Origin: Levilactobacillus zymae DSM 19395
GTDB taxonomy: Bacteria; Bacillota; Bacilli; Lactobacillales; Lactobacillaceae
Assembly (NCBI RefSeq): GCF_001434115.1
Contig: NZ_AZDW01000017.1
Span: 1 to 54,988 of the forward strand
Direction: 5' to 3'
DNA: 54,988 nucleotides
Both the position numbers and the translations under genes were made by a program. This document shows positions 7,199 through 35,030 of this stretch, in pieces; within the stretch, counting starts at the first letter, position 1, and every line of letters begins with the position of its first letter. The notes under the pieces were generated by a model. That model worked only from the letters and a program-made list of their open reading frames with translations, was not told the DNA's origin and ran no database searches.

Positions 7199-7354
7199 GC
7201 TGAAAGGCGGTTAGCACTCGTTCCGACACCAATTGTCAGGAAAAATAAAAAAGGCCTTATCCCAAGCGGGACAAAGTCGCAGTAGTAGCTTGCATGAATA
7301 GACCATCTTTCAGTACTGTTCTATATATTCCACGCTCCATTTAGCCGTGAGGGC

Positions 7355-7488
7355 GGTCCTGAAGGGGCTCAGTGGTGTCGTTTGGGTTATTCGGGGTTCT
7401 TTCCCGGATTACCCAAAGGCCGAGCTTGAAGACCTGGCACTTTCAGGGCTTCAAGTCGTGCCCACCACGATCCAGCCCCTTCAGGACC
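7355..7488 (+). ncRNA. Structured RNA element family A, copy 1
   Basis: Outer stem: 7355-7369 pairs perfectly (15 bp) with 7474-7488. Inner stem: GTGGTG 7372-7377 with CACCAC 7463-7468. Arm P2: 7381-7395 with 7403-7417, 15 positions with a single T-T mismatch at position 8 and a GTTCTTT loop. Linker GGCCGAG. Arm P3: CTTGAAG 7425-7431 with CTTCAAG 7449-7455, capped by CCTG/CAGG. The string TCGTGCCCACC follows. Architecture is the same as the copies at 11374 and 29285, though the stem sequences differ. It lies after the AraC gene and before a convergent gene. G-T wobbles fall on the plus strand, favouring a plus-strand RNA. Confidence 0.7.
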
Positions 7489-7491
7489 AAC

Positions 7492-7526
7492 CGGTAAGGC
7501 GGATAATTTCCACAATCTGCCCTTGA
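7492..7526 (+). repeat. Remnant of hairpin repeat B
   Basis: GTAAGGCGGATAAT followed shortly by AATCTGCC resembles the inner hairpin of the repeat at 42457-42553 (read on the minus strand there). Another shared piece, AAAGGCGGTTAGC then CGACACCAA, occurs at about 7204-7234. Copy 1 of element A thus sits between two pieces of repeat B. The rest of the 7199-7354 gap shows no gene. Confidence 0.5.
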
Positions 7527-7537
7527 CTAAAAGCAGT

Positions 7538-7573
7538 AAAAGGAGCCTGAGAATTCCATCTCAGACTCCTTTT
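7538..7573 (-). terminator. Bidirectional terminator
   Basis: A 15-position stem (AAAAGGAGCCTGAGA with TCTCAGACTCCTTTT); its one non-Watson-Crick pair is a G-T wobble only on the minus strand. It lies between the convergent AraC/element A side and the membrane protein gene at 7607. Confidence 0.8.
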
Positions 7574-11135: not shown

Positions 11136-11373
11136 GTGCGCGTCCTCCATCTTCACTAAATATAATTTTAGTATGCGTAATACTAGTTAGGCTACTTTCA
11201 CTGGCTGAACTTTGGAAAATAAAATTCACCAAAGAATTAAGCGTAACCGGATTTTCACCCTAACTCTTTTATCTACTAGAATTGATCTTAAAAATCAGCT
11301 ACTAATGTAATAACCATTCGCTATCGTTTAATCAAAACTATTTGAACTGCTGGTGCATCCAGTGTGAGCTGGA

Positions 11374-11514
11374 GGGCCAGTCAGAAATGGGCTCAGGGGT
11401 GAAATTTGCTTTGGCCGGTGTTTTTTACCGACCTAGGCAAAGGTCGGTCTTCAAGACCTGGGCTACGGGCTTGAATCCGTGCCCACCCCGTTCCAGCCCG
11501 TTGCTGGCTGGCCC
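11374..11514 (+). ncRNA. Structured RNA element family A, copy 2
   Basis: Outer stem of about 20 positions: 11374-11393 with 11495-11514 (G-T wobbles on the plus strand). Inner stem GGGGTG 11396-11401 with CACCCC 11484-11489. Arm P2 11405-11419 with 11427-11441, GTTTTTT loop, T-T mismatch at position 8. Linker GGTCGGT, arm P3 CTTCAAG/CTTGAAT with CCTG/CGGG cap, then CCGTGCCCACC. The 3' flank CCCGGAAGCGCTGAA is shared with copy 3. It lies antisense to both neighbours (corA, pnuC). A candidate plus-strand promoter is TTGATC-18-TGTAAT at 11282-11311. The rest of the 11136-11595 gap shows no gene. Confidence 0.75.
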
Positions 11515-11595
11515 GGAAGCGCTGAACCCTGCTAGATTAATTCTTTAAGACGCCATCTAATATTACATATAATTTTAGTGTACCACGCGCCCAGC

Positions 11596-21257: not shown

Positions 21258-21908
21258 CTAATCTGCACTCTTCTGCGCGAGCTTGACCGTATCGGCCGCC
21301 GTGGTGCCGTTGACCGCGTAGAGTTGCTTACCGGACTGCCACTTGACCGTGTTGGCCTTAGCACTTTCCGTGCCGCTGTACACCGTCACCGATCCCGTCT
21401 TGGCGGTGTCTGGCAGACTAGCTTGCTTCAATTGCGAATTGACCTGCTTGGCAAATTGCGTGGGCGTACCACTGGTATCGGCGTTATCCGTGACCGCGGT
21501 GACCGACCATTTACCCGTATTCCAGTGAACGTAGGTGTGCCCCATGGTGCCTTGGACCACCGCCGTGGTGTTCTTGGTCAACTTGACGTTAGCGCCGTCA
21601 GTCTGGCCCACGTAATCCACTTCATCCGTGGCCGTGCTGGTCGTGCCCAACGTCTGCTTCTGGAAGGTCGCACTTTGCTTCCCTTGCTGGTCCGTGTAGG
21701 TCACCTTGTAATTGCTTTTCGTGCCGCTAGTACTGGTGGCCGTTAATTTAGTCCCGTCCGCCGTGGCCGTCTTAGGTGCCGCGGTTTGGCTGACCGTACT
21801 AACGTCGTTGGCCGCATGCATGGTCAGGTAGGTCCCCGACCCCAACGTTGCCAGTGCCGCCAAACTAGTGGCCGCGGTTAAAATCAATTTTTTAGTCCGT
21901 GAATTCAT
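21258..21908 (-). CDS. Small exported protein, lysozyme cassette 1
   Basis: A 216-residue protein with an N-terminal export or anchor segment (RTKKLILTAATSLAALATLGSGTYLTM) and a Thr/Ser/Lys-rich mature part. The conserved core is GTMGHTYVHWNTGKWSVTAVT, then FAKQVNSQL, VTVYSGT and NTVKWQSGKQLYAV. It lies 15 bp after a GH25 lysozyme gene and is clearly paralogous to the broken gene at 23630-24299. Family not recognised; a surface accessory to the lysozyme is a reasonable inference. Confidence 0.75.
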   Translation of the reverse strand: MNSRTKKLILTAATSLAALATLGSGTYLTMHAANDVSTVSQTAAPKTATADGTKLTATSTSGTKSNYKVTYTDQQGKQSATFQKQTLGTTSTATDEVDYVGQTDGANVKLTKNTTAVVQGTMGHTYVHWNTGKWSVTAVTDNADTSGTPTQFAKQVNSQLKQASLPDTAKTGSVTVYSGTESAKANTVKWQSGKQLYAVNGTTAADTVKLAQKSAD

Positions 21909-29085: not shown

Positions 29086-29284
29086 GGAATTTGTCAGGCA
29101 ACCATCCTCACCGGTAAATCATGACCACTGCAAACAAATCAGTTGCCTTCGAGTGGCTCGAAGGGCTTAGAATGAACTTATTAGGCCTTGTTTTAAAACT
29201 CAAGCACTGATTTAAATAACCATTCATAACCTCTTAGTTGAAAAGAATCCAGCCTAGCTGTCTCTATAACTTGTGTAAGCTGGA

Positions 29285-29431
29285 GGGCCAGTCAGCAATG
29301 GGCTCAGGGGTGTGATTTGTCTTGGCCGGTGTTTTTTACCGACCTAGACAAAGGTTGGACTTTGAGACCTGAACTTCGGGCTCAAAGCCGTGCCCACCCA
29401 AAACCTGTTTCCGCCCGTTGCTGACTGGCCC
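29285..29431 (+). ncRNA. Structured RNA element family A, copy 3
   Basis: Outer stem of 19 positions, 29285-29303 with 29413-29431 (one T-G wobble), extended by CTGGAG (29280-29285) with CTCCAG (29446-29451). Inner stem GGGTG/CACCC. Arm P2 starts TTTGTCTTGG, loop GTTTTTT, returns CCTAGACAAA, with the T-T mismatch at position 8. Linker GGTTGGA, arm P3 CTTTGAG/CTCAAAG with CCTG/CGGG cap, then CCGTGCCCACC. Against copy 2, pair 5 of P2 changes C-G to T-A and pair 6 T-G to C-G. It lies 414 bp between two plus-strand genes; the rest of the gap shows no gene. Confidence 0.75.
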
Positions 29432-29499
29432 GGAAGCGCTGAATTCTCCAGATTAGTCTTTTAAAGCAGACCCTAGTCAGACAAAGGAGTCGAACCCAA

Positions 29500-31695: not shown

Positions 31696-31823
31696 TAACT
31701 GGCTAGCGGTAAGCCAGTTACCATATAGAATATTGAATAATCGGTACCGTCCATTTGGCGGTTCTTCCGGTGGCCCCGTTGACCTTTGGTGGATTTTGCC
31801 GTTTAATGAATGGTAATGTTACC
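31696..31823 (+). promoter_or_regulatory. Inverted repeats upstream of MFS gene 1
   Basis: TAACTGGCT and AGCCAGTTA (31696-31704, 31712-31720) form a perfect 9-bp inverted repeat, and GGTAATGTTACC (31812-31823) is a perfect palindrome about 30 bp before the first MFS start. The 31584-31853 gap otherwise holds no gene. A dedicated regulator is not adjacent. Confidence 0.4.
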
Positions 31824-34526: not shown

Positions 34527-34543
34527 CTCAACAACAACGATTA

Positions 34544-34585
34544 AAAAATCCGTTTGACCGGGATGCGCCGGTCAAACGGATTTTT
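34544..34585. terminator. Bidirectional terminator overlapping a gene end
   Basis: A perfect 18-bp stem (34544-34561 with 34568-34585), six-base loop, A-run and T-run on both sides. It serves the MFS gene on the plus strand and the gene on the minus strand, whose last codons and stop (34572-34574) lie within the stem. Confidence 0.92.
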
Positions 34586-35030
34586 GAGTTGCTGGGATTA
34601 GGGGGACCGCCGTCGCGTGCGCTGCCAGGGTCAACGCGGCTCCCAGACCGTCGACAAAGTCAAACGGAATCTGGGCCGCCATTAACGCCTGCCGAGCGGC
34701 GCGCAGTTGCCGCGGCAGTTCCACCACGTCGTCCGTACGGCTAACGACTAGTCGCGGTTGGCCCGCGGCCCGTAACGCCGTGATCAGCGTCGGCACCAGC
34801 CGGGCCAGCTCAATGGTCGGGACTAGCGCAATCACTTGGTCCTGCCCCAACATCGCGGCGGTCAAGCCGCCCTCGTCTAAGGGCTGACCCGTTAACGCCA
34901 AAACGTCGGCGGGTAAGGTCACGCGACTGGGTGAATACACGGTCACTGTCACCCGGTCCAGTCGCCGGAGCTGGTCAATTAGGGTGCGGGCCGCGTGGTC
35001 CAGGGCCCCTACTAACAAAATATGGGACAT
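34572..35030 (-). CDS. Short NAD(P)-binding NmrA-like protein
   Basis: A 152-residue Rossmann-like protein starting MSHILLVGALDHAARTLIDQL. The glycine motif is degenerate (GALDHAA instead of GxxGxxG), and length is short compared with about 210-residue NAD(P)H-binding relatives. Pieces such as VLALTGQPLDEGGLTAAMLGQDQVIAL follow the family layout. AAGGAAG precedes the ATG. A MerR-type promoter drives it; MerR-controlled NmrA-like genes are often electrophile or aldehyde responsive. It may be a degenerate or regulatory member rather than an active reductase. Confidence 0.7.
   Translation of the reverse strand: MSHILLVGALDHAARTLIDQLRRLDRVTVTVYSPSRVTLPADVLALTGQPLDEGGLTAAMLGQDQVIALVPTIELARLVPTLITALRAAGQPRLVVSRTDDVVELPRQLRAARQALMAAQIPFDFVDGLGAALTLAAHATAVPLIPATQKSV

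Follow-up and report, generated by a model that had tools for sequence, protein, structure and literature searches.

The structured segments that occur three times in the window, as we call the whole 54,988 nt stretch of the Levilactobacillus zymae DSM 19395 genome that was analysed, belong to a repeat family that we interpret, with moderate confidence, as non-autonomous, mosaic and mobile intergenic repeats of the Lactobacillaceae, organized like REPINs or BIMEs and spread through a protein that recognizes their fold. The copies share a covarying fold with a preferred strand, are dispersed in large numbers in several genera, form divergent pairs of two unlike cores and differ in their presence between close relatives; we infer that the fold serves dispersal and that the recognizing protein exists. 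About 70 to 119 copies were detected in several lactobacillus genomes, yet no Rfam model matched. The repeat offers a system for asking how elements that encode no protein persist across genera and what it is that recognizes their fold.

Structure of the window copies

Copy 1 contains all of the helices that the initial annotation had assigned to it: an outer stem of 15 perfect pairs (7355–7369 with 7474–7488), an inner stem GTGGTG/CACCAC, an arm of 15 positions, capped by the loop GTTCTTT, in which position 8 is a T-T mismatch, and a second arm CTTGAAG/CTTCAAG. Its minimum free energy is −95.1 kcal/mol, compared with a mean of −61.8 for shuffled sequences (z, −7.81), and none of 200 shuffles is as low. 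Copies 2 and 3 fold like copy 1 (z, −5.17 and −6.70 respectively), and a single 155 nt fold is common to all three, with a long outer stem, a conserved internal loop and a three-way junction that carries two arms. The presence of structured copies in the window is confirmed. The extent originally given, 7355–7488, is correct for the span of the outer stem, but the conserved core is larger and itself lies within a longer unit (Table 1), and the claim that copy 1 has almost no stem sequence in common with the other two was overstated, since the mean column identity of the three copies is 81 %, flanks included.

The unit that carries copy 1 consists, in order, of a left A-tract and hairpin, a linker, the core and a 3′ tail, and is without the middle module of a 424 bp form of the same unit, at the left end of which the hairpin is also found. 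The second hairpin, just beyond the tail, may belong to a host gene on the other strand; after other copies of this type a hairpin is present at a similar position, with varied sequence. The unit of copy 2 ends in degenerate terminal inverted repeats of about 18 bp between TA dinucleotides, and the right terminal repeat of copy 3 is also matched by the pattern for such ends with one mismatch.

Table 1. Positions of the repeat and associated features in the window
Feature	Position	Strand	Basis
Structured core of copy 1 (subfamily B)	7343..7500	+	Covariance model match (144.8 bits), fold, stem arms
B unit carrying copy 1	~7247..7536	+	Comparison with copies on C42, G012 and G022; both ends approximate
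Terminator-like hairpin at left end of copy 1 B unit, reading outward (leftward)	7255..7276	−	Consensus scan
Terminator-like hairpin directly after tail of copy 1 B unit	7538..7573	.	Consensus scan
Copy 2 A-type MITE-like unit, 279 bp	11279..11557	+	Sequence, analogy with intact A units
Structured core of copy 2	11367..11521	+	Covariance model match (168.1 bits)
Copy 3 A-type unit, 290 bp, terminal inverted repeats between TA dinucleotides	29184..29473	+	Sequence
Structured core of copy 3	29278..29438	+	Covariance model match (155.3 bits)

Two further kinds of repeat were seen in the window. A repeat scan found tandem paralogous gene stretches, 71–78 % identical, at 31755–33083/33297–34526 and at 21258–23276/23615–25574, and a 27 bp inverted repeat (34535–34594; 85 % complementary, arms 6 nt apart) lies just past the end of an ORF and is probably a terminator.

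Copy number and distribution

A BLAST search of the assembly with copy 2 gave 69 matches, of which 40 are long copies, the others being short matches to a palindrome. A search with copy 1 gave 18, among which are the query and a second copy, on contig C42, with 166 bp of perfect identity to it. A covariance model built from 39 copies (R1; 155 positions, 57 pairs) has 70 matches at E≤0.001 in the 2.7 Mb assembly. The copy numbers are probably undercounts, 70 being a lower bound, because runs of N start inside cores: two further copies in this assembly contain such runs (L061:2314–2363 on contig C17 and L062:1966–2033 on contig C40), and others begin inside cores at loci L179 and L185. Short-read assemblies seem to break at strong hairpins, and with gaps inside some copies the repeat affects annotation as well as assembly. 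The copies fall into subfamilies that differ in their stems and closing ends, namely A (copies 2 and 3), B (copy 1) and others.

In a scan of 118 genomes, the L. zymae genome among them, run with stricter filters and with at most 25 candidates scored per genome, R1 matched 37 genomes at E≤10−4; these are 33 of the 35 genomes in the genus and four others in the family, and span five of 63 genera. A fuller scan of six of the matching genomes, L. zymae not among them (up to 150 candidates scored), gave 119, 119, 73, 34, 22 and 3 matches. A pattern scan of named genomes found at least 110 stretches; among the 80 listed, 62 are from the Lactobacillaceae, of which R1 matches 57, and 18 are from elsewhere, of which it matches none. 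By genus, R1 matches 21/21 of the listed stretches in Companilactobacillus, 17/17 in Levilactobacillus, 4/4 in Lactiplantibacillus, 5/5 in Lacticaseibacillus, 3/6 in Schleiferilactobacillus, 2/3 in Pediococcus, 5/5 in uncultured Lactobacillus and 0/1 in Secundilactobacillus, so that among the matches listed six Lactobacillaceae genera are represented. The family is therefore broad but patchy in its distribution. One subfamily, about 183 nt long, has an extra arm and reaches 119 matches in each of the two genomes G003 and G030 (loci L176–L200); its paired partner is only 40–45 % alike.

Searches of plasmids by blastn with an A unit and with a B unit gave no match, and neither did a search of phages with an A unit; this would be unusual for an active transposon and weakens the case for mobility. 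One IMG/VR viral contig has the core pattern (L325:7873–7893).

No Rfam match at the gathering score, and no tRNA, was found in the window, and 15 related loci of six genera gave no match at that score other than one tRNA; in eight loci searched at E≤1 no match overlaps the element. The best overlap in the window, at E≤5, is to psaA (E-value, 1), which scores 12.9 bits where the cut-off is 50. The proposal that this is a candidate outside existing Rfam families thus stands, both for the window and for the related loci, and searches of open-licence papers turned up no description of the repeat. The possibilities of attC sites, omega-RNA/HEARO elements and introns were provisionally set aside.

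Covariation and strand

The fold is maintained by compensatory change. Very strong covariation was found, beyond that in shuffled sequences and in pairings with the partners slid; all of the tests ignore kinship among the sequences. In an alignment of 39 copies from this genome that had not been fitted to the structure, 39 of the 57 pairs show two-sided changes, as against a mean of 17.7 after shuffling and at most 14 with partners slid. Among 100 distinct sequences of a multi-genus set, aligned to the model, such changes are seen at 55 of the 57 pairs, 94.3 % of cells pair, and the covariation score is 0.643 (0.177 shuffled, ≤0.084 slid); a second set drawn from named records gives 52 of 57 pairs and a score of 0.614. 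RNAalifold, applied to an unfitted alignment of 31 chosen sequences, recovered the fold with 48 pairs, 45 of them with two-sided changes. When column pairs were ranked by coupling in an unguided scan, the first 40 contained 37 modelled pairs for one set and 34 for the second, both alignments being model-fitted. Outside the structure, where tertiary pairs were sought, the coupled columns either adjoined each other or lay beside known pairs, apart from a few towards the ends. The nearly invariant stretches, which are in part unpaired, include CTCAG, AGAC and CGTTCCAGC. The early description of a covarying fold with conserved unpaired bases is thus borne out, and homologues from other genera keep the pairing rather than lose it.

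The two strands are not equivalent. Over 198 distinct sequences there are 393 G-T cells and 132 A-C cells (1121 and 911 when shuffled), and 41 pairs lean to G-T as against 9 that lean to A-C (binomial P=6×10−6, kinship ignored). The modelled strand is therefore the one whose fold counts, either as RNA or as single-stranded DNA. We considered whether the copies might be palindromes that act purely as DNA, as a cruciform or recombination hairpin with no single-strand or RNA role, the covariation then arising only by conversion between the arms. Such an element would fit the strong hairpins, the assembly gaps that interrupt some copies and the modular exchange among B units described below, and at the level of events the strand contrast is weak, with 39 pair types showing G-T and 33 showing A-C in 88 distinct sequences (the 70 cores of this assembly, the rest relatives or duplicates). 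Decay of single copies once they have inserted would produce a weak contrast, although a strand-neutral hairpin would give the same. The G-T excess in the larger set, together with loop and junction bases that are both conserved and asymmetric, makes the purely DNA-level explanation very improbable.

Divergent pairing of two core types

Where neighbouring cores lie no more than 700 nt apart at the sampled loci, they are divergent in 59 cases (57 of them distinct), tandem in three and convergent in none, with spacers of 14–560 nt. In every one of the 57 distinct pairs the partners, which are 40–75 % alike, resemble each other less than each resembles a core of another unit. A divergent partner accompanies 62 of the 100 cores in the named set; the figures are 36 of 77 for the remaining multi-genus sequences and 12 of 70 for the L. 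zymae assembly, where the other 58 cores are single.

In its complete form the unit probably has two diverged cores (types I and II), one on each side of a short variable spacer and pointing away from it, a conclusion drawn from the pairing in other genomes, the named set above all. The L. zymae genome holds mostly single cores, the window's three among them, and these would be solitary or repackaged derivatives. The scarcity of divergent partners in this assembly weakens our preferred explanation in this respect. On that explanation, selection would keep the fold formed by the strand directed outward, away from the spacer, the conserved junction bases would probably contact a protein supplied in trans, and that protein would recognize the fold and so help the element to spread.

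Unit types and mobility

The repeat moves, as is shown by insertion polymorphism among relatives. A 289 bp A-type insertion in G013 has TTAG on both sides, and the corresponding site is empty in L. zymae and in G012; an A-type insertion in G012 is flanked by CTAG and CTAA, and the target duplication may therefore be only TA. The window copies themselves are variably present. The copy 1 site measures 393 bp in this assembly and 41 and 35 bp in G012 and G013 respectively, a difference that exceeds the element and is not a clean insertion; copy 2 is absent from both relatives, where again more than the element differs, and copy 3 is at the matching place in G013 and absent from G012.

A-type units have 18 bp ends at an outer distance of 230–311 bp, TA or YTAR-like flanks and no ORF. 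In their terminal inverted repeats and lack of an ORF they are like MITEs, and in the Levilactobacillus clade the core may also have been packed into a MITE of about 280 bp, presumably moved by an IS-type transposase in trans. They are unlike MITEs in that the ends, searched by exact pattern, occur in only three of 33 genomes of the genus, whereas the core is genus- and family-wide, and in that no IS element with matching ends was seen. The search for such an IS element found exact pairs of ends only 230–311 bp apart in the three positive genomes, and the candidate was rejected, although diverged ends would be missed by this pattern.

B units are modular and exchange modules with each other. 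The 424 bp form on contig C42 and that in G012 are 96 % identical, the range among four copies is 92–96 %, and three comparisons of the flanks revealed no homologous proteins. The assertion that the structure is "not a simple repeat" was not borne out as worded, in that it is a repeat of the high-copy, dispersed and mobile kind, as the 70 matches in the assembly, the TTAG-flanked copy in G013 and the 424 bp unit attest. Clean insertion with a flanking duplication was seen for the A type only, and neither terminal inverted repeats nor target duplications were seen for B or paired units, which weakens our preferred explanation where the paired units are concerned.

Genomic context

Gene context was assigned by an ORF heuristic, which gave both neighbours for 65 of the 70 cores in the assembly. 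By this measure 22 of the 65 lie between convergent genes, 37 between co-directional genes and six between divergent genes, the median distance from the 3′ end of the core to the next ORF is 62 nt, and the core has the same orientation as its upstream gene in 38 cases and the opposite one in 27. Seven cores overlap an ORF of at least 90 codons. The small number between divergent genes favours a mobile repeat. The same distribution would also suit an element that serves the host at the 3′ ends of genes, where the structure would stabilize, process or insulate mRNA ends; a divergent pair would then supply both members of a convergent gene pair with a sense core, placed distally on a transcript that reads through. 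REP and BIME sequences are reported to affect termination and mRNA half-life (PMC8049555; PMC2965389).

Comparison of individual loci bears on this alternative in both directions. At the copy 3 site shared with G013, 13 of 20 changed pairs remain standard, seven of them through double compensatory changes, which could mean a local function and to that extent weakens the case for a mobile element. The core there is 77 % identical, below the flanking genes (81 and 88 %), which counts against a host role; the site fits retained structure, replacement or independent insertion. At an orthologous locus of G022 and G024 the core is 96 % identical and its flanks 94 and 96.5 %, and only one of five changed pairs is standard in both; this fits decay of an insertion, and pairs that break in this way favour the mobile reading. 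With the orientation to the upstream gene so nearly even, and with the presence of sites varying between close relatives, a service to host 3′ ends seems to us rather unlikely.

A pair of divergently transcribed small RNAs, regulatory in trans and spread as a multi-copy gene family, would explain the strict divergence of two different folds, the strand asymmetry and the terminator-like hairpins at the ends of B units. Scans for the signals of such genes argue the other way. The promoter score upstream of cores averages 7.48, compared with 7.49 for shuffled sequence, though 14.2 % of upstream flanks have matches of at least 9/12, as against 6.5–10.9 % for other choices of flank and strand. Of 92 cores, nine are followed by an intrinsic terminator on their own strand and 16 by one on the opposite strand; upstream of the cores the counts are four and two respectively, and 11 of 634 control segments have one. 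A small-RNA gene with its own promoter and terminator finds no general support in these scans and was rejected, and with some spacers only 14–30 nt long we judge the divergent small RNAs to be quite unlikely.

Candidate mobilizing enzymes and known systems

Since no mobilizing enzyme was found, the explanation by dispersal is weakened in this respect too. The Y1 transposase domain (PF01797) is present in five of ten genomes and absent from the L. zymae assembly, which is rated 99.98 % complete, and from four other core-rich genomes; as in addition only one of 12 Y1 loci holds a core, mobilization by a Y1/RAYT enzyme was rejected. So was mobilization by a resident reverse transcriptase, RVT_1 being present in three of 12 genomes and absent from this assembly. 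A bolder proposal is that the repeat is a bacterial counterpart of SINEs. It would then be a mobile class of the Lactobacillaceae encoding two structured RNAs of diverged type and divergent orientation, whose folds and junction bases the element requires in order to be dispersed, the dispersing factor being something other than a RAYT or a resident reverse transcriptase; we offer this tentatively and consider it rather unlikely.

A REP unit is a short palindrome. The repeat is like REPINs and BIMEs in its many intergenic copies per genome (70 in 2.7 Mb), its inverted pairs and its variable spacer, and unlike them in its 155 nt core with a three-way junction, in partners that are always of diverged types, in a strand-specific covarying fold and, compared with the RAYT-linked forms, in having no Y1 transposase in the L. 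zymae assembly. REPINs are described as two inverted REPs around a variable spacer, with singlets as remnants, and as forming vertically persistent populations (PMC8049555). That description does not accommodate two different folds being paired, a preferred strand or a conserved junction of this size, and the family is nearest to REPIN/BIME but not a member, lacking the short palindrome and, in this assembly, the RAYT. It is also like Lacto-usp, Lacto-rpoB and GOLLD, candidate structured RNAs found by comparative genomics and described as covarying structures of the Lactobacillales with no protein and of unknown function (PMC2864571), and differs from those candidates in that no Rfam model matched it and in its tens to more than 100 copies per genome.
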